Source: Desulfobacula toluolica Tol2
Lineage (GTDB): Bacteria; Desulfobacterota; Desulfobacteria; Desulfobacterales; Desulfobacteraceae
Assembly: GCF_000307105.1 (NCBI RefSeq)
Contig: NC_018645.1
Coordinates: 1,252,578-1,316,577, forward strand
Length of the DNA stretch: 64,000 bases
Direction of reading: 5' to 3'
Both the position numbers and the translations under genes were made by a program. The notes below the pieces were generated by a model. The model saw nothing but the letters and a program-made list of their open reading frames with translations. It was not told the origin of the DNA and did no database searches. Shown piece after piece: positions 2,457-62,892 of this stretch; position 1 is the stretch's first letter, and every line of letters begins with the position of its first letter.

Positions 2457-3018
2457 TGAACATTATCCTTTCCGTCAGGTCGCACAGTATGTGGGCCAGC
2501 AGGATATGGACTTCTTGTATCCTTGCTGTTGTGTCGCAATCAACACAAAAACAAATATCTGTCAATTGTTTTAATTTGCCATTGTTTCCTGAGAAACCAA
2601 CACTCAAAATCTCCATTTGCTTTGCTTGCCTAACCGCTTTGATAATGTTTGGAGAATTTCCGGAAGTTGAGATGCCAAGGGCAATATCTCCTTTTTTTCC
2701 AAGGGCCTGTATCTGTTTGGAAAAAATATCTTCATAAGAATAGTCATTGCTGATACTGGTGATAACGGATGTATCAGTGGTCAGGGCAATGGCTGCCAGC
2801 GGTTTTCTTTCCATCCTGAATCTGTTGACAAATTCTGCGGCAATATGCTGGCAGTCTGCTGCACTGCCGCCATTTCCGAATAAAAGTATTTTTCTGCCTT
2901 TTTTCAGAGCTGCTGCCATTATGGAGGCACAGGATTCAATGTTTTCAATATTATCGGAGAAAAATTCTTTTTTTACTGTGATACTGTCGTTAACAGATTG
3001 TTGAATAAGATTCTTCAT
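2449..3018 (-). CDS. gmhA: Phosphoheptose isomerase
   Basis: GmhA converts sedoheptulose 7-phosphate to D-glycero-D-manno-heptose 7-phosphate, the first step of heptose supply for the LPS inner core. The 189-residue length is right for the family. The SIS domain shows FGNGGSAADCQHIAAEF near residues 48-64, which carries the phosphate loop and the metal or catalytic His, plus a second loop GISTSGNSPNI and the late His-bearing EVHILLAHILCD. It lies 25 nt after the TPR gene and overlaps the deoxyhypusine-synthase-like gene by 8 nt. No other heptose genes are in the window. Confidence 0.9.
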   Translation of the reverse strand: MKNLIQQSVNDSITVKKEFFSDNIENIESCASIMAAALKKGRKILLFGNGGSAADCQHIAAEFVNRFRMERKPLAAIALTTDTSVITSISNDYSYEDIFSKQIQALGKKGDIALGISTSGNSPNIIKAVRQAKQMEILSVGFSGNNGKLKQLTDICFCVDCDTTARIQEVHILLAHILCDLTERIMFNE

Positions 3019-3043
3019 AATTGACTGATTCTTTCAATAAGTG

Positions 3044-4270
3044 TTATGATGCGGATTTAATTTTTTCTTCCTGACTGGCGTGAACTTCAATTTTTTTCAT
3101 TATTGCTTTTAATCTGTCTTTGAACAGGCTGTTGGCCGGTTGAATGGCAATGCTTTTTTTTGCAAGGCTAATAGCAATGTTCAGGTTTTTATCCTGAAGC
3201 AACATGGATTTTGCATACCCTGACAAAGCAACAGCATCCAGAGGATTGAGTTTGACGGCTTTGTTAAATTCAATCCCGGCTTTTTCAGGCTGATTTTTAG
3301 CCAGATAAATTTCCCCCTTTATCCTGAAAACAAGGCCTGATTCAGGATTTATCCGGCTTGCCGCTTCAAGATGAGCCATGGCCCGGTCAAACTGCTGAAT
3401 TTTAAACAGCAGCTTTCCCAGAAGAAATTCAACTTCAAAAACACAATCATCAATGTCATGGGCTTTGTGCAAACACTGAATTGCCTGGTACAGATTGCCG
3501 TTAATCTGGTAAAGAAGGCCTGTATTATAAATGACCATCACTTCATTGGGATTGATTTTCAAGGCTTTTTCAAATTCAAGTTTTGCATTGTCCAGCTTTC
3601 CCATGACCCCGAAACAGACCCCCAGGCTGTTGATCAGGTTAATGTTATTGGGTTCTATTTCAAGGCCTTTTTTATATTCTTTGATGGCCATGTTGTATTT
3701 GTTCAGCTGATAAAGCCGGTCTGCACTGATATTAATGGATACAGCATCAAAGTGAATCAGGGTGTCAGGCCCGAAAAAGGCTGCGTGATCCGCAGCTTTG
3801 AGAGCATTGACAACTGTTTGGGGTTTTGAAAAATCATGACAGGGAAATTTTGCCACCCCCATAAGAATCTCTGTTCTAAAGGCTGTAGATAGCTTTTCTT
3901 TTAATGAAACAAGGCGATTTGCAGCTTTTTTTTCACTTTCATAGCCACAGAATGCCATAATAAATGATGTTTTGCTTAAGCATTTCCAGATGCCTTTTTT
4001 ATGATCAGGAAAGGAGTTAAAAAAGGTTTCAAGTGTCTCTTTTTTGTTCTTTATGATTGATTCAGACCTGTCCGAATTAAGCTCAAGTACTGCACACAAA
4101 AAATTATTCCAGGATATGGTGACTTCGGACAGCTTTTTTTGAAAGGCTTTGATCCGGTTTTTTTTTGTCAAAAGCAGATCACTGAAATATGTTTCAGGTG
4201 GCTTGATCTTGAAATTATCAGAATCTTTTTTCAGAAAATGAATTTCTTTTGAAGAGAATTTGACAGTCAT
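3044..4270 (-). CDS. TPR protein with an N-terminal degenerate GGDEF-like domain
   Basis: Residues ~190-390 of 408 are tandem tetratricopeptide repeats (YNMAIKEYKKGLEIEPNN, AKLEFEKALKINPNEV, AGIEFNKAVKLNPLDA), a protein-protein binding scaffold. Residues ~60-185 look like the shell of a diguanylate cyclase. SFIMAFCGYESEKKAANRL sits where GGDEF and the following helix would be. LMGVAKFP and then VNALKAADHAAFF match the later 'iGiA.yP' and 'l..AD.AlY' blocks. The GGEEF signature itself is absent, so enzyme activity is not expected. There is no signal peptide. The start overlaps the selA stop by 4 nt, and gmhA follows. The partner is unknown. Confidence 0.65.
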   Translation of the reverse strand: MTVKFSSKEIHFLKKDSDNFKIKPPETYFSDLLLTKKNRIKAFQKKLSEVTISWNNFLCAVLELNSDRSESIIKNKKETLETFFNSFPDHKKGIWKCLSKTSFIMAFCGYESEKKAANRLVSLKEKLSTAFRTEILMGVAKFPCHDFSKPQTVVNALKAADHAAFFGPDTLIHFDAVSINISADRLYQLNKYNMAIKEYKKGLEIEPNNINLINSLGVCFGVMGKLDNAKLEFEKALKINPNEVMVIYNTGLLYQINGNLYQAIQCLHKAHDIDDCVFEVEFLLGKLLFKIQQFDRAMAHLEAASRINPESGLVFRIKGEIYLAKNQPEKAGIEFNKAVKLNPLDAVALSGYAKSMLLQDKNLNIAISLAKKSIAIQPANSLFKDRLKAIMKKIEVHASQEEKIKSAS

Positions 4271-55485: not shown

Positions 55486-56712
55486 TTAGGATTTTTGTTT
55501 TTTTGCGTCTTGAATTTTTTTGTTTGCAGCTTTTAATGCCTGGCTTAGCAGGTCAATATCCACAGGTTTTTGAAAGTATGCATAAGCACCAAGCTGCATG
55601 CAGATTTCTTTGTCTGCTTCAGACCCATGACCTGTTAATATGATTACCTCTATATCAGGCTGGGTTGTTTTTACTTTTTTCAGCACTTCGATACCATCTA
55701 TGCCCGGCATTTTTAAGTCTAAAATCATCACATCAGGTTCATCTTCAGCAACAAGATTTAATGCCGATTCACCGTCATAAGCAACGGCCGATCCCATATC
55801 ACGCATTTGCAAACGTTCTGAAAGCGTTTGAACAAATTCACGTTCATCGTCCACCAGTAAAACCTTTGAAGGAACTTGAAAATCATATTTCCGGTAAATG
55901 TCAGCCTTATAAAAACCTTTTCCGATTCGAGTCTCCACCGTATTAACCCCTTCAACCTTGCCGGCAATTGATTTTAATTCTTCTTCAAGCCGGCTCAACA
56001 ATAAAACATTTGTATGTATTGTTAAGGTGACATGTCCATCCCGCACACTTACATCAACCGCATGTCCTTCATTTGATAAGGCAACTTCCACATGGGCGGC
56101 CTGTAAAAAATCTTCTGCTGCTTTCATTGATGCCTTTGTGGGCTGGATGACCTCACTTTTCAAGTTGCTGTCTATCAATGAAATAATTTCTTTGTCGGTC
56201 ATTTTATCTGTGGGGATTATGATGTCATAAAGCGAGGTATCCCAGGGGTCACTCATTTTATAAAGACTGTCTATCCATACACGAAAGACGTCGTCATCTT
56301 TTTGGATATGAGCGCAAGCCTCTTTTTCACTCATCCTTTTTTCTTTCATTGCCTGTGCAATTCTGTGTTTCATATCTGCAATCAAACAAATTCTAAGCAC
56401 ATGACTTACTGAATGTGGAATTAAAACACCTGCAAACCCGTCAATTAAAAAATTATTGCCTGATAAAGCCTGTGCCAATGCTAATCTTAAATAAGCTAAA
56501 GAGCGTTCCTTTTCATGGGTGAACCTGTTAAATACAGAGGTTTTGTTAAAAAAAACATTGTTAATTTTTTGTCCCGGGATACCTGAAAGCTGACTTGCGC
56601 GATCAATCAAATCCTGGTCTGATAGAATATTATAACTGCTTTTTTTTAAAATTTTTTCAATAATTATTTCTTTCCCGCAAAATGTTCCGCTTAAAAATGT
56701 CATGGCCGACAT
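55486..56712 (-). CDS. Cytidylate-kinase-like / BON / receiver fusion
   Basis: Residues ~1-200 resemble the cytidylate-kinase-like family 2: a P-loop-like SGTFCGKE, DQDLIDRAS, a helical lid with FLIDGFAGVL and RICLIADMKHRIAQAM, and YDIIIPTDKM. The glycine-rich loop is weak, so catalysis is doubtful. Residues ~205-270 look like a BON domain (VEVALSNEGHAVDVSVRDGHVTL split over VEGVNTVET). Residues ~285-400 are a receiver (KVLLVDDEREFV; MILDLKMPGIDG). It lies 27 nt after sulP and 22 nt before the kinase gene. Confidence 0.72.
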   Translation of the reverse strand: MSAMTFLSGTFCGKEIIIEKILKKSSYNILSDQDLIDRASQLSGIPGQKINNVFFNKTSVFNRFTHEKERSLAYLRLALAQALSGNNFLIDGFAGVLIPHSVSHVLRICLIADMKHRIAQAMKEKRMSEKEACAHIQKDDDVFRVWIDSLYKMSDPWDTSLYDIIIPTDKMTDKEIISLIDSNLKSEVIQPTKASMKAAEDFLQAAHVEVALSNEGHAVDVSVRDGHVTLTIHTNVLLLSRLEEELKSIAGKVEGVNTVETRIGKGFYKADIYRKYDFQVPSKVLLVDDEREFVQTLSERLQMRDMGSAVAYDGESALNLVAEDEPDVMILDLKMPGIDGIEVLKKVKTTQPDIEVIILTGHGSEADKEICMQLGAYAYFQKPVDIDLLSQALKAANKKIQDAKKQKS

Positions 56713-56739: not shown

Positions 56740-58875
56740 TTATAGACCCTGTCTTAAACAGGTCGTCAACAGGGGGCATTTTTTTTCTGAAGCGCCCTCA
56801 TGTGTGTGTTGATGAACTTTTGCAATGGCTTTTTCCATGGTTGGATAAATGTTATGCTCACCTATCTCTTCAAGAAGATGAGTGCGTTTCATAACCTTAT
56901 AGACGGATTCATTAACACCACTCAGAGAAATGCCATACCCGGCACTGCGCAACCATTGAACTATCACTGCCAGCATTTCTTCCCCGGATGCATCCATATC
57001 GTTTATTCCATTGGCTGCGATAATGATATGGCGCAATTCAGGGTTTTTGTTTATTCTGTCATTAATCTCATCTTCCAGATAGCTCGCATTTGCAAAAAAA
57101 AGTGGGCCCTCAAAACGTATCAGGTCAATGTGTTTACAGGTCATTAATTGATTCGTTTCTGAACATCTTAATGCCTTGTCTTCCGCCCTTGATAAATAGG
57201 AAACCTTTGGGCGCATACTTTTGTATAAGAATACTCCCAAGGAGAGTGCAACTCCGATATAGATGCCTTTTTCAAGATGTGGAGCAAGCAAAAGTGTTGC
57301 AACAAAAGTGATAACCGAAATAAGTCCGTCATACCATTGAGCCCGCCAGGCATGAACAAATCCTGATATGTTTACAAGTCCGATAACCGCCATCATGATT
57401 ACTGATGCCAGAACCGCCTGGGGCAGATGGTATAAAAGGGGGGTGAAAAATAAAAGGGTTATAATGACAATTAAACTTGTAATAACACTGGATAAACCTG
57501 TTAAAGCACCTGCCTGTAAATTTACCGCGCTTCTGGAAAATGATCCTGAAACAGGGTAGCTCTTTCCAATGGCCCCAATCATGTTGGATATCCCCTGACC
57601 AATCAATTCCTGGTTCGGATCTAACCGCTGCCCGGTTTTGGCTGCCATTGCTTTTGCAATGGCAATGGCTTCCATAAAGCCCAGAAGAGAAATGATGACG
57701 GCAAAGGGAAAAAGCTGGATAAAAACGGAGAAGTTCAGTTGGGGTATGCTCAGTGAGGGAAGTCCCTTTGGAATATTTCCGACGACCGCACCTCCTCCCA
57801 TTAACGACAGCTTTTCCGTATCAATTGGTTTGTTCCCGATTTTAATATGATAAACACGACCGTCTGATTCAACAGGCTTAAACGATTTTGAAGCAGGATA
57901 AAATAACTCCTGACCGGAAGGCGTTTTTACTGCTGTAAATTTAACCTTTCTCAAATTTGATCTGAGTTGGCCAGCCTGTTCTTTAAACTGGTTTATTTTT
58001 GATGTCATCAAGTTGATTTCAAAATTTTCTTCTAATAAATTTAAAGATTTTCCTTTGTCTGAGTGCATTGAATCAAGTTTTGATGTTGCAATTGCCCTGT
58101 TTTTGCTTAATTCTTCTATTGACATTAATGTTGCATTAAAATTTTTAATTTGATGACGAATATCAGTCGCCTCAATTTGTTCAATGGGTACTTTGACATT
58201 ATGCTCAAACCCGGTTGACCATGAAATCAAGGTGGTTGTTACTACGGCTGCAAGGACATAAGGGATTTTAGGATTTAATCGCTTAAGTCCTATCATGATA
58301 CCAATCGACAAAAGACCTATAAAAAGCGTTGGCAGATGTGTAAAATCCATTGCAGCCACGATAACCCTGTAAATGGTTTCATAATGGTGATTTGCTTTAT
58401 CAACATATACTCCAAACATTTTTGACAACTGGGATGAAGCAATTATAATCGCAGCAGCATTTGTAAAACCGTTTACAACAGGATGAGAAAGAAAATTTAC
58501 AATCAATCCCAATCTTAATACACCCAATAAAAATTGAAAAATTCCCACGGTCAGTGCCAGCATTATGGCATACGCAATGAACGCTTCACTGCCTGCCGTG
58601 GCAAGGGGTTCTAAGGATGCTGCGGTCATGAGGGAGACGACGGCTACAGGTCCGGTTGCAAGCTGCCTGCTTGATCCGAACAAAGATGCCATCATTGGGG
58701 GTAAAAAGGCTGCATAAAGTCCATAATATGCTGGTAATCCGGCCAGTTGGGCATAAGCCATAGATTGGGGGATTAACACCAAAGCAACCGTTAATCCAGC
58801 CAGGAAATCAATTCGAAATTTTCCTATTGTATAATCTTTAAACCACTCCAAAAAAGGAAAAAATTTGGTAAGCAT
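56740..58875 (-). CDS. SulP-family anion transporter with STAS domain
   Basis: A 711-residue inner-membrane transporter of the SLC26/SulP family, typical of sulfate or bicarbonate uptake. The N-terminal core is LAGLTVALVLIPQSMAYAQLAGLPAYYGLYAAF. The C-terminal STAS domain (~585-690) has IDLIRFEGPLFFANASYLEDEI and IIAANGINDMDASGEEML. Unusually, residues ~224-360 form a hydrophilic, partly coiled-coil insertion between membrane helices, where family members pass directly to a motif like VVGNIPKGLPS. The start overlaps the tetR stop by one base. The transported anion is not deducible. Confidence 0.9.
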   Translation of the reverse strand: MLTKFFPFLEWFKDYTIGKFRIDFLAGLTVALVLIPQSMAYAQLAGLPAYYGLYAAFLPPMMASLFGSSRQLATGPVAVVSLMTAASLEPLATAGSEAFIAYAIMLALTVGIFQFLLGVLRLGLIVNFLSHPVVNGFTNAAAIIIASSQLSKMFGVYVDKANHHYETIYRVIVAAMDFTHLPTLFIGLLSIGIMIGLKRLNPKIPYVLAAVVTTTLISWSTGFEHNVKVPIEQIEATDIRHQIKNFNATLMSIEELSKNRAIATSKLDSMHSDKGKSLNLLEENFEINLMTSKINQFKEQAGQLRSNLRKVKFTAVKTPSGQELFYPASKSFKPVESDGRVYHIKIGNKPIDTEKLSLMGGGAVVGNIPKGLPSLSIPQLNFSVFIQLFPFAVIISLLGFMEAIAIAKAMAAKTGQRLDPNQELIGQGISNMIGAIGKSYPVSGSFSRSAVNLQAGALTGLSSVITSLIVIITLLFFTPLLYHLPQAVLASVIMMAVIGLVNISGFVHAWRAQWYDGLISVITFVATLLLAPHLEKGIYIGVALSLGVFLYKSMRPKVSYLSRAEDKALRCSETNQLMTCKHIDLIRFEGPLFFANASYLEDEINDRINKNPELRHIIIAANGINDMDASGEEMLAVIVQWLRSAGYGISLSGVNESVYKVMKRTHLLEEIGEHNIYPTMEKAIAKVHQHTHEGASEKKCPLLTTCLRQGL

Positions 58876-59480
58876 CAGTCTATACCTTCCATGTTTAAGT
58901 TGTTTGATTTTAATATTTTTTTACAGGCAATGATCATATCATTGAACAAAGCACTGGCATCATATAAATTATAAGTTTTGAACCTTACCACTCCATCCAC
59001 CATGGAAAAAATGATTAATGCTGTTTTTCGTGAAGGCATAAAATCAATTGATCCGTCTTTTTGTCCGGTTTCTATGGCATTTTCGTATATGCTTACCAGA
59101 CAATCATAAATTGCTTCTAAATTCCGGCGACACTCTGGAAACTCTTGAGCCATCTGATACGGATAATAACGATGCAGCAAAAGAAACTGATTTTCCATTT
59201 TTCCGGCCAGATAAAGGTGGAATGCAATCGAACTTTCAATCATATTCATTCCGTTTTTGAACTGCTGTTTTTCCATATAGTTTTCAAATTCCTCAAGAAT
59301 CATTTCCCGGGTATGTTCAAGCACCGACAGAAACAACGTTTCTTTGTTTTTGAAATGATAAAAAATAGTCCCCTCAGCAATGCCAATAATTTTAGACAAC
59401 TCTGCAGTTGAAGTCTCTCTGTATCCATTTCGAGAAAATAAAATTGTTGCAGTTTCTAAAATTGCCTGTTTGCGTTTCAT
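58875..59480 (-). CDS. TetR-family repressor of the SulP operon
   Basis: The 201-residue protein starts with a TetR HTH (MKRKQAILETATILFSRNGY, then TAELSKIIGIAEGTIFYHFKNKETLF), followed by an all-helical ligand domain. I use ATG 59480; the frame can be extended to a GTG at 59507, but that lies inside the operator. It is the first gene of the SulP operon and shares a base with sulP (TGATG). Two TGAGT/ACTCA palindromes right upstream indicate autoregulation and control of the operon. The ligand is unknown. Confidence 0.9.
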   Translation of the reverse strand: MKRKQAILETATILFSRNGYRETSTAELSKIIGIAEGTIFYHFKNKETLFLSVLEHTREMILEEFENYMEKQQFKNGMNMIESSIAFHLYLAGKMENQFLLLHRYYPYQMAQEFPECRRNLEAIYDCLVSIYENAIETGQKDGSIDFMPSRKTALIIFSMVDGVVRFKTYNLYDASALFNDMIIACKKILKSNNLNMEGID

Positions 59481-59496
59481 TGCACATATCCCATAT

Positions 59497-59531
59497 TGAG
59501 TATTCACTCAGATAAACTGAGTATTTACTCA
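59497..59531. promoter_or_regulatory. Tandem TetR operators
   Basis: TGAGTATTCACTCA (59497-59510) and TGAGTATTTACTCA (59518-59531) are near-identical TGAGT-N4-ACTCA palindromes whose centres are 21 bp apart, two helical turns. They lie directly downstream of the -10 element of the tetR promoter, where bound protein would block initiation. Confidence 0.75.
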
Positions 59532-59809: not shown

Positions 59810-59846
59810 TTAATATGGGGTGCTGGAATTGAAAAGGAATTATGAA

Positions 59847-61712
59847 ATGAAGAAATTGTTTTTGGCATTGCTTGCCCTGTTGGCTGCCCCGGTTTTGGTT
59901 TGGGCATCGGGTGGAGATACCGGTCATTCGGAATTAATAGATTTTACAAAAACCACATATGGCTACCTGGGTATCGGCCTTTTTGTGGCGGCATATGCAT
60001 TAGTGCCCCTTGAGAATACCATTCACCTTCGCAAGAGCAAACCCGTACTTCTTGCCGCCGGTTTTATCTGGGTACTGGTCGCATTTGCCTATATGAGCGT
60101 CGGGGATACACATACGGCTCACGAAGCCATTAAAGACAGTTTGCTTGAGTATGCAGAGTTGTTTTTGTTTCTGCTTGCTGCCATGACTTATATAAACTCC
60201 ATGGAGGAGCGGAATGTGTTTCAGGCCCTGAGGGCCTGGCTGGTTTCAAAGGGATTTTCCCTTAGGGTCTTGTTCTGGATTACCGGACTTCTGGCTTTTG
60301 TCATCTCGCCGGTGGCCGATAACCTGACCACGGCACTTCTTATGGGTGCAGTCATCATGTCTGTTGGCGGTGATGACAAAAAGTTTGTCGCCCTGGCCTG
60401 TGTTAATATCGTTATCGCGGCCAATGCAGGGGGTGCATTTTCTCCGTTTGGGGATATCACAACCCTGATGGTGTGGCAGAATGGCAAGGTGGCCTTTACT
60501 GAATTTTTTCATATCTTTGTTCCCTCCCTGGTCAACTGGCTTGTGCCTGCTATCTGTATGAATTTTGCCGTTGCCAAGACTTCTCCCAAGAAACTGGATG
60601 AGAAGGTTGAGATGAAATACGGTGCCAAGGTTGTTATGGCTCTTTTTCTTTTGACCATCATCACTGCTGTCAGCTTTCATAATTTTCTTCAACTCCCCCC
60701 TGCAGCAGGTATGATGCTTGGACTTGGGTATCTTGGTTTTTTCAGTTACCATATCAAGCGCAAAGAAGGGAGGATGCTTTATTATGACAATATTCTTGGT
60801 TCCAGAAGCAAGAGTTCTGCAACAAATGCACTCTCTGCTCTGCAGGGCAAGACCCATGATGAGATCACCGGGCTGGTCAATGATCTTCCAACTCCCGCTT
60901 TTATTCTTGACAAAGAGCATGTGATAACCCATTGGAACACGGCCATGGAGAAGTTGACCGGTGTTTCGGCCAAAGATAAGATCGGTACTAAAGATCAGTG
61001 GAAGCCGTTTTATCCAAAAGAAAGACCCCTTCTTGCCGATATGGTTCTGGAAGGCGATTCAAAGAAATTGATTGACAAGTTTTATCATGGCAAAAACATG
61101 CTCAATAATTTTCTTGAATCTGCTTATGAAGTGTCGGATTTTGATCCTTCTCTTGGAGAAGAGGGCAGGTGGCGTTATTTTACGTCAGCACCCCTTAAGG
61201 ATAAAACAGGCCAGGTGGTGGGTGTTATCGAAACCATTGAGGATATGGAAAATGTCCAGGAGACAAAGAAGTACTTTGACATCATGGAAAGAATTTCCAG
61301 GGCGGAATGGGACACTCTGCTGTTTTTTTACGGGGTAACCCTTTGTGTCGGAGGCCTTGGCCAGTTTGGTTATCTTAGTCTTGTATCTAATTTCATGTAC
61401 GGTGACCTTGGACCAACAGTGGCAAATTCCCTTGTTGGGGTGTTATCTGCCATTGTTGATAATATTCCGGTCATGTTTGCAGTTCTCAAGATGGATCCTG
61501 TCATGTCCCACGGCCAGTGGTTGCTGGTTACCCTGACAGCTGGTGTAGGAGGAAGTCTTCTCTCCATAGGTTCTGCGGCAGGCGTTGCCCTGATGGGAAC
61601 CGCCAGGGGGGTTTATACCTTTGGCGCCCATTTTAAGTGGGTTCCGGTTATAGCGCTTGGCTATGTTGCAAGTATACTGGTTCATCTTTTGATTAATGCC
61701 AAATTTATGTAG
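59847..61712 (+). CDS. nhaD: NhaD-type Na+/H+ antiporter with an inserted PAS domain
   Basis: The 621-residue protein has a signal-like N-terminus (MKKLFLALLALLAAPVLVWAS) and the ion-transporter halves of NhaD: FVISPVADNLTTALLMGAV and ANAGGAFSPFGDITTLMVW in the first, then GVLSAIVDNIPVMFAVL and GGSLLSIGSAAGVALMG in the second. Between them, at residues ~335-470, lies a complete PAS/PAC unit (LVNDLPTPAFILDKEHVITHWN; RWRYFTSAPLKDKTGQVVGVIETIEDM). Usual NhaD proteins are ~450-490 residues. ATG 59847 has AAGGA ahead; an in-frame GTG at 59820 is less likely. It is divergent from tetR and ends at a terminator. Confidence 0.88.
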   Translation: MKKLFLALLALLAAPVLVWASGGDTGHSELIDFTKTTYGYLGIGLFVAAYALVPLENTIHLRKSKPVLLAAGFIWVLVAFAYMSVGDTHTAHEAIKDSLLEYAELFLFLLAAMTYINSMEERNVFQALRAWLVSKGFSLRVLFWITGLLAFVISPVADNLTTALLMGAVIMSVGGDDKKFVALACVNIVIAANAGGAFSPFGDITTLMVWQNGKVAFTEFFHIFVPSLVNWLVPAICMNFAVAKTSPKKLDEKVEMKYGAKVVMALFLLTIITAVSFHNFLQLPPAAGMMLGLGYLGFFSYHIKRKEGRMLYYDNILGSRSKSSATNALSALQGKTHDEITGLVNDLPTPAFILDKEHVITHWNTAMEKLTGVSAKDKIGTKDQWKPFYPKERPLLADMVLEGDSKKLIDKFYHGKNMLNNFLESAYEVSDFDPSLGEEGRWRYFTSAPLKDKTGQVVGVIETIEDMENVQETKKYFDIMERISRAEWDTLLFFYGVTLCVGGLGQFGYLSLVSNFMYGDLGPTVANSLVGVLSAIVDNIPVMFAVLKMDPVMSHGQWLLVTLTAGVGGSLLSIGSAAGVALMGTARGVYTFGAHFKWVPVIALGYVASILVHLLINAKFM

Positions 61713-61742
61713 TCTGGTATTGTTAAAATAAATTGATAGAGG

Positions 61743-61778
61743 TATGGCTCGGTCTTTGGCTGGGCCATATCTGTTTTT
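61743..61778 (+). terminator. Intrinsic terminator after the NhaD gene
   Basis: TATGGCTC (61743-61750) pairs with GGGCCATA (61762-61769), eight pairs with one G-T. A T-rich tail (61774-61778) follows. It lies 30 nt after the antiporter stop. Confidence 0.7.
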
Positions 61779-61890: not shown

Positions 61891-62892
61891 TTAGAGGTCA
61901 TTCTCGTTCTTATCCAAGACTGAGAAGTCAAATCCAGGATATAATTTTTCACAGCATGCAGGGCATATACCGTGGGAAAACACAATGGTTGAAAAATAAT
62001 CTTCAACCTGCACCCAATTGTTTTTTTCTATTTTGATGCTTTTGCAATTTGCACAGATAGGGAGAATATCCTTTGAATTTGAATCTTTTTGCAAGAGAAA
62101 TCTCTGGAATTTTTTTCTAAGCTCAATGAATTTTGTGATATCCCGGACAACTGAGATAGACCCTTTGTATATGTTTGTGTCACTCCAAATAGGGCTGCAG
62201 GCCAGTTCCACGTGAACAGGATGGTTGCTTTTATCAAATATTTGTATCTCATACCTGCTGCTTAATCCGGTTTTTCTGTTCTGGGTTTGTTGTTGAATAA
62301 TCTTAAAATTGTCTTCATCAGAGAGATCTTTGATGTTTTTTTTCAGTATCTCATCACTTGAATACCCTGTCATGATGCAAAATGCCTGGTTGGTATAGGT
62401 AAAGTTTTCATGTTCATCCACTGTGAAAACACCCTCAACAATATTTTCCGTAATGGTTCTGTACTGGTGTTCACTTTTTTCAAGCTGCTTTCGATATCGC
62501 TTGTTTTCTTCAAACAACCTTTTGTTTTCAAGAACCTGCTTAACAGTATGGCTTATCATGTCAAGATCTTCAACGGGTTTTGTAATATAATCTTTGGCCC
62601 CCATGCGCAGAGCCTTGATAATATCTTCTTTTTTCCCGGCCCCGGATATCACGATCAATGGCGTATCCGGTTTTGATTTGTGAATAGTTTTCATGACTTC
62701 AATGCCATCCATTCCAGGCATCCTTAAGTCAGTGATAACAATATCAACCTGGTTATTGAAAAAAATATCCAGGCCGCTTTCACCATTTTCTGCAGAAAAG
62801 ACAAGATAGTCCTCATCTTCAAAAAAAGATTTCAGACTATCTCTAATGGTTACTTCATCGTCAATTATTAATATCGTTTTTTGATCGGTCAT
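61891..62892 (-). CDS. Response regulator: receiver, PAS and Cys4-type C-terminal motif
   Basis: Residues ~5-120 of 333 are a receiver (ILIIDDEVTIRDS; IVITDLRMPGMDG; ITKPVEDLD). A coiled-coil linker leads into PAS/PAC (~145-265; GVFTVDEHENFTYTNQAF). The tail carries CANC (280-283) and HGICPACC (307-314), a layout seen in many PAS-type regulators of this phylum that may bind metal. No DNA-binding or kinase domain is present. It converges on the NhaD-PAS gene, 178 bp apart. Confidence 0.85.
   Translation of the reverse strand: MTDQKTILIIDDEVTIRDSLKSFFEDEDYLVFSAENGESGLDIFFNNQVDIVITDLRMPGMDGIEVMKTIHKSKPDTPLIVISGAGKKEDIIKALRMGAKDYITKPVEDLDMISHTVKQVLENKRLFEENKRYRKQLEKSEHQYRTITENIVEGVFTVDEHENFTYTNQAFCIMTGYSSDEILKKNIKDLSDEDNFKIIQQQTQNRKTGLSSRYEIQIFDKSNHPVHVELACSPIWSDTNIYKGSISVVRDITKFIELRKKFQRFLLQKDSNSKDILPICANCKSIKIEKNNWVQVEDYFSTIVFSHGICPACCEKLYPGFDFSVLDKNENDL

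Follow-up and report, generated by a model that had tools for sequence, protein, structure and literature searches.

A gene of the marine sulphate reducer Desulfobacula toluolica Tol2 that appears to place a PAS domain inside an NhaD Na+/H+ antiporter raises the question of whether such a domain can control a transporter directly; the switching of finished secondary transporters is less understood than the regulation of their genes. The gene lies in a 64,000-nucleotide stretch of contig NC_018645.1 (positions 1,252,578 to 1,316,577), hereafter the window, for which a first-pass annotation had proposed two NhaD transport halves separated by a single PAS domain at residues 335-470 and had suggested direct allosteric control of antiport without a kinase (features in Table 1).

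Both transport halves were recovered. The protein matched NF038006 (NhaD_1) at 594.3 bits (E 1.1e-178, cut-off 80) in two segments, of which residues 61-311 scored higher, and Pfam CitMHS at 128.3 bits (cut-off 31.9). It did not reach the cut-off of TIGR00775 'NhaD' (429.7 bits vs 577.1), a miss that is not discriminating because the PAS-less NhaDs tested fall short too: 6/6 further NhaDs missed it (418-470 bits), four of them PAS-less proteins, including those of Colwellia and Psychromonas, at 444-470 bits. As in the NF038006-type NhaDs of V. cholerae, V. parahaemolyticus and Halomonas, both halves are present with their DN hairpin motifs and an AEWDT motif bearing the likely critical Asp-Thr pair. 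This pair, D489-T490, is invariant in 58 aligned sequences and is very likely the equivalent of V. cholerae residues 344/345, since the Colwellia NhaD (L143, 473 aa) has its sole D-T at 344-345; judged in the same way by position, the pair falls at 344 in L105 and at 348 in L136. Asp344 and Thr345 are described as critical in V. cholerae NhaD by the title of Ostroumov et al. (2002), as cited in PMC9408914 and PMC1552076, and the latter names Asp369 and Thr370 of H. elongata NhaD as a conserved crucial pair. Judged from sequence, the gene is intact, and its product is an NhaD-type Na+/H+ antiporter, a member of the ion-transporter (IT) superfamily, with both halves complete. Its open frame spans 59820-61712 (+), with an in-frame GTG at 59820 as an alternative start that would add 9 aa. 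A frame error or a fusion of two genes was ruled out by the 621 open codons and by the identical architecture in 36/389 genomes. The nearest named relatives are 86-87% identical in the PAS-NhaD protein. As it is the only NhaD found in the D. toluolica genome, where one CPA-type exchanger and no NhaA were found, PAS-NhaD may be important for the sodium balance of this organism.

Table 1. Features of the PAS-NhaD gene and its immediate flanks, in window coordinates
Feature	Position	Strand	Basis or detail
TetR-type gene, before PAS-NhaD	58875-59507	-	ORF list and Pfam
AAGGAA, likely ribosome-binding site	59834-59839	+	7 bases 5' of ATG 59847
PAS-NhaD gene	59847-61712	+	621 aa + stop, ATG start (ORF list, Pfam/NCBIfam matches)
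N-terminal transport half, residues 30-310, with SPVADN hairpin motif and GDITT	59934-60776	+	NF038006, alignment, model
Linker before PAS, residues 311-334; K..EG....YD.ILG conserved immediately ahead of linker and into it	60777-60848	+	Alignments, charge analysis
PAS domain, residues 335-472 (approximate)	60849-61262	+	Pfam, alignments, structure search
PAS-to-transporter linker (FD.M..I), low model confidence	61263-61298	+	Models, alignment
C-terminal transport half, residues 485-621, with AEWDT and VDN	61299-61709	+	NF038006, alignment, model
Asp489-Thr490, by position likely to correspond to Asp344-Thr345 of V. cholerae NhaD	61311-61316	+	Alignment
Terminator-like hairpin, 15 pairs, T-rich tail	61740-61772	+	3' of PAS-NhaD gene
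Receiver-PAS protein gene, after PAS-NhaD	61891-62892	-	ORF list and Pfam

The single PAS domain between the halves was borne out with nearly the same limits as first proposed. PF00989 (PAS) matched residues 342-380 at 30.2 bits (cut-off 22.6) and PF08448 (PAS_4) residues 345-468 at 28.0 bits (cut-off 23.1), with PAS_8, PAS_9 and TIGR00229 below their own cut-offs in the window protein. A chance match was ruled out by the PAS fold in the structure search and by the homologues, each of the two models matching 31/31 PAS segments at E ≤ 0.001 (31 of the 38 unique ones, the window's included). Pfam detected neither a kinase domain, as had been expected, nor any other output domain in PAS-NhaD. The suggestion of a redox or cofactor signal found no specific support: the window's PAS contains no Cys, and inspection of its residues picked out none typical of haem or LOV-flavin binding. 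Inspection of the 38 PAS sequences showed Cys in at least five of them at column 367 alone (8/38), and H362 in 37/38. When the PDB was searched by profile for close relatives of the PAS with a bound ligand, the best matches were phytochrome B (1.9e-12) and DosP (1.5e-5), which do not name a ligand.

The insertion is not an ordinary NhaD loop. Across 132 unique proteins the length of the central loop was bimodal, at 172-174 residues in 38 PAS forms vs 9-41 in 94 PAS-less forms with none between, in agreement with the earlier statement that this loop is short in ordinary NhaDs; six added rows fell into the same two groups (PAS-less loops of 14, 27, 32 and 30 residues, PAS loops of 172 and 172). 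With a significant PAS match and a loop foreign to ordinary NhaDs, neither of the two outcomes that would have undone the first-pass reading was observed. Short loops among the best 80 loci of the named-record scan, which covered close relatives only, belonged to NhaDs of Desulfobulbaceae, gammaproteobacteria, Gemmatimonadota, Nitrospinota, Planctomycetota and others, and PAS-NhaD was found there in Desulfobacula sp., Desulfobacterium sp., Desulfosarcina alkanivorans, Desulfatitalea and further Desulfobacteraceae. Four of these 80 loci stood outside the loop check, namely L082, L144 and L145 (N half only, at contig ends) and L120 (PAS absent, gap of about 40 residues), and none of the four shows a PAS between complete halves.

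The search of Desulfobacterota for the same architecture that the annotation had called for showed it to be widespread within one order. A full-length PAS-NhaD was present in 1/395 genomes of the phylum sample, the window's own, and NhaD relatives outside the order gave a two-piece match omitting the PAS. In the order sample, NhaD matches occurred in 50/389 genomes, of which 36 encoded full-length PAS-NhaD (42 rows), eight members of the window's family had PAS-less forms only, two from other families (G495, G529) were PAS-less, one had a broken gene and three were too fragmentary. Within the family, 24/86 genomes matched NhaD at 1e-45, comprising 14 with full-length PAS-NhaD, eight with PAS-less NhaD only, one with a broken PAS-NhaD and one fragment; a PAS-less NhaD stood beside PAS-NhaD in 5 of those 14. 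Among individual loci, the PAS-NhaD gene of L060 (G429 contig 251) is disrupted by stops and frame shifts and its PAS can still be recognised, L072 (10126 bases) is a palindrome-like contig with two mirror PAS-NhaD copies that is probably an assembly artefact, and L102 and L081 carry tandem pairs of PAS-less NhaD genes on the same strand.

An AlphaFold2 model built from 58 aligned sequences (mean pLDDT 81.3, pTM 0.71) combined an ArsB/INDY-type transporter with a PAS fold. The top PDB matches in Foldseek were ArsB (10tp_A, E 1.3e-7), Pho90, NaS1, Drosophila INDY, NaCT, NaDC1 and the bacterial dicarboxylate symporter 4f35, with the PAS proteins DosP, Rv1364c and BvgS also under 0.001. A PAS-only model (12 sequences, pLDDT 78.8) matched 374 PDB chains at E ≤ 0.001, DosP first, and the best 50 of the 374 were all PAS/LOV proteins or fusions by title or family knowledge; the five-strand antiparallel sheet and flanking helices of a PAS were seen in both models. 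Using helix limits taken from the AlphaFold2 model, we counted K+R in the loops of the 58 sequences. Loops on the PAS side averaged 2.24 (residues 53-63), 3.53 (119-138) and 3.12 (240-259), with 3.17 immediately before the PAS (305-316) and 2.03 after it (478-488), whilst N-half loops on the other side averaged 0.36, 0.05 and 0.00, with an exception of 1.22 at 212-217, and C-half loops averaged 0.00 except for 2.24 at 585-599. Because the loops beside the PAS are rich in K+R, the positive-inside rule would place the domain on the cytoplasmic side, consistent with the superfamily fold and with the location that the annotation had proposed checking. The seating of the PAS on the transporter is not predicted, because pLDDT was below 50 in both linkers (310-322 and 471-483, the second being low in the PAS-only model too), and the AlphaFold models contained no confident PAS-transporter interface or rigid helix.

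On balance, it seems probable from the sequences and models that a ligand in the cytoplasm is sensed by the PAS, which then tunes NhaD antiport without a kinase. The domain would face the cytoplasm and bind the sort of small molecule to which this PAS type responds in Desulfobacterota signalling proteins; binding would alter its contact with the linker into the Asp489-Thr490 helix, or the tension on that linker, and so shift the antiport rate or the pH set-point. Sensor and effector would thus share a single polypeptide, dispensing with kinase, regulator and partner gene. About 17 residues separate the PAS from the A-E-W-D489-T490 helix, and since the domain leads into the helix with the very likely critical D-T pair, a ligand-driven change could act on a functionally sensitive element. 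As PAS-less forms exist in sister genes, the domain probably tunes a pump able to work without it and is not required for transport. The low-confidence linkers, the faster divergence of the PAS and a raised dN/dS in one clade count against ligand tuning.

The same three observations would suit a dimerisation or stability module, which joins two NhaD protomers or protects the loop and senses no ligand. PAS domains often dimerise, and dimerisation may be the sole role of this one; the PAS does diverge fast, with 36-79% identity to the window across 23 sequences, against 73-92% in the N half and 79-95% in the C half. Ten PAS positions are nevertheless invariant in all 38 sequences (W363, N364, G380, T381, W385, F388, D398, Y413, G459 and E462), and nine of them, all but W363, are invariant or at least 90% conserved when 10 NhaD and 13 signalling-protein PAS are taken together; aromatic and polar positions held in common with signalling proteins argue against a purely structural module. 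So do the PAS-less sister genes, which keep both transport halves conserved and therefore do not need a PAS for assembly, and we consider the dimerisation reading unlikely. Simple Nei-Gojobori counts gave PAS dN/dS of 0.07-0.17 in the pairs L163/L165, L152/L153, L070/L071, L157/L156 and L150/L149, and of the 40 close pairs listed from 214, the majority stayed under 0.6. In the clade of L046, L048, L051 and L064, five pairs reached 0.71-0.86 at a low PAS dS (0.11-0.21), with 0.21-0.41 in the N half, so that here the PAS may be relaxed or changing its ligand. Direct allosteric control as first suggested is plausible, given that the insert is kept across the order, has ten invariant positions and leads into the D-T pair, whilst the models gave no confident interface through which it would act.

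The surroundings of the gene bear on a second alternative, that PAS-NhaD is a transceptor, its PAS informing other signalling proteins of the ligand or of the state of transport and not controlling transport itself. Receiver-PAS, histidine kinase and cytidylate-kinase-like/receiver fusion genes do lie within about 6 kb of PAS-NhaD in the window. The transceptor is nonetheless very unlikely given the absence of an output domain from the protein, the opposite strand of both flanking genes, between which PAS-NhaD stands alone, and the varied neighbours among loci, where no conserved partner emerged and no family occurred in more than 4/12 (flanks up to 6-7 kb, several shorter). The hairpin downstream of the gene fits transcription of PAS-NhaD as a single gene; terminator-like sites were not enriched (3 found vs 3.0 expected in shuffles), and a promoter scan was uninformative (6 found vs 4.4 expected). 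A tRNA scan of the window and a search against the PADLOC anti-phage library each returned 0 matches. The fusion gene itself, at 55486-56712 (-), joins a cytidylate-kinase-like domain (PF13189) to a receiver domain by Pfam; a PF13189 gene directly precedes PAS-NhaD in L073, and another possibly stands beside it in L068, where clustering alone indicates it.

The history of the insertion was read from the transport halves of 71 of the 132 unique proteins (the 72 nearest the window on a first tree, minus one long-branch row). One clade (100/99) united the 38 PAS rows with 11 PAS-less rows from the window's family, and within it the 11 PAS-less rows were nested among the PAS rows as a clade of their own (100/99). 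Forcing the PAS rows into one clade, a group named after the first tree was seen, lowered the log-likelihood by 17.35 (AU p 0.0539). A 77-row tree (40 PAS, 37 PAS-less), which added the PAS-less G495 and G529 from other families of the order and G451 and G476 from the window's own, again required two changes, placed 13 PAS-less family rows together (100/99) and penalised the same constraint by 22.29 (AU p 0.0408); G495 and G529, both long-branched, joined the outer PAS-less rows. With these AU values, one PAS gain followed by one loss is favoured as the shortest account and not forced, the loss being likely and not proven. The edges of the insertion are sharp, between YD.ILG.R and FD.M..I.RAEWDTLL, and both edges are kept in the PAS-less sisters. 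A near-neutral, functionless insertion inherited by descent would be content with a single origin, the favoured loss (at least one) and the raised dN/dS of one clade, and is very unlikely, because 38 unique proteins spread over the order all keep a loop of 172-174 residues, most of the listed close pairs have dN/dS under 0.6 and ten positions are invariant.

The PAS itself belongs to the same subfamily as the PAS of histidine kinases, sigma-54 regulators and PAS-GAF proteins of Desulfobacterota, with identities to the window's PAS of 37-46% (L026-L038) and 38-40% (L169, L170, from the D. toluolica genome). Domains were determined in 10 of the 13 former proteins and in the latter two: those from other genomes combined histidine-kinase, sigma-54, receiver, GAF and further PAS domains, and both from D. 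toluolica carried histidine-kinase domains. Whereas the signalling PAS sit in kinases or regulators, the NhaD PAS form a separate group, a PAS-only tree placing the 38 NhaD PAS and these 15 signalling PAS, a small sample picked as best matches, on opposite sides of one branch (100/99). Recurrent shuffling of the PAS with kinases is therefore not supported, and we favour a single insertion, of a PAS type also present in Desulfobacterota signalling proteins.

One Desulfobacula MAG encodes two PAS-NhaD paralogues (L068 and L069, 6001-7863). At the DNA level they are 100% identical in the N half between residues ~45 and ~185 and 92-100% identical through most of the C half; third-position identity is only 59-61% in the PAS and 76% over residues 211-310. 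The gap for this pair is 31 points, the next being 8 among 16 pairs with N-half third-position identity of at least 70%, and similarity of the flanks ends about 100 bases upstream and directly after the gene. The pattern resembles patchy gene conversion in which the PAS stayed different between the copies; the tracts are few, and the sparing of the PAS may be chance, or the pattern a MAG assembly error. A broader reading, tentative and somewhat short of probable, is that PAS-NhaDs constitute a class of kinase-free, ligand-gated Na+/H+ antiporters, in which a signalling PAS would have moved once into the NhaD loop and become an allosteric regulator. As the transport halves of L068 and L069 are nearly the same and their PAS differ, one pump type would here come with a choice of sensors, and certain genomes would also have it sensor-free.

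Transporters regulated by attached domains are already familiar in broad terms, and a PAS inserted in NhaD extends them. Within the IT superfamily, some CitMHS/DASS transporters likewise have a regulatory-type domain between their halves, although it is TrkA_C in place of PAS and these are not NhaDs; since two CitMHS proteins of the D. toluolica genome (L001, L002) carry TrkA_C there, the central loop already hosts such domains in the superfamily. According to a 2023 review (PMC10710835), many transporters bear additional domains whose function is not known; those fused to MFS transporters include PAS, CBS, cyclic-nucleotide-binding and UspA domains, and there too a PAS is joined to a secondary transporter. 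The MFS is another superfamily and its fusions are usually C-terminal, whereas the PAS-NhaD insert is internal. Among the listings and passages retrieved from the open-licence PMC library, including those of PMC9408914, PMC5942162, PMC5840216, PMC12421958 and PMC1552076, none described a PAS-NhaD. Other pairings occur in the D. toluolica genome (contig C1): around 2250767, a 691-residue protein (L007:721-2793, +) has a receiver domain (16-125) ahead of a DASS-type transporter, and around 2798300 two genes (L169:340-2418 and 2471-3385, -) encode a CitMHS_2 transporter and, about 50 bases further along that strand, a PAS histidine kinase whose first PAS is of the NhaD PAS subfamily.

The PAS-less sister genes provide natural controls for the role of the PAS. 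With a PAS inside the transporter near the D-T pair, a readable history and these sisters at hand, direct gating by the PAS would be simple to test in vesicles. If the proposal is true, it would also let the metabolic state of sulphate reducers bear directly on their sodium and pH balance.
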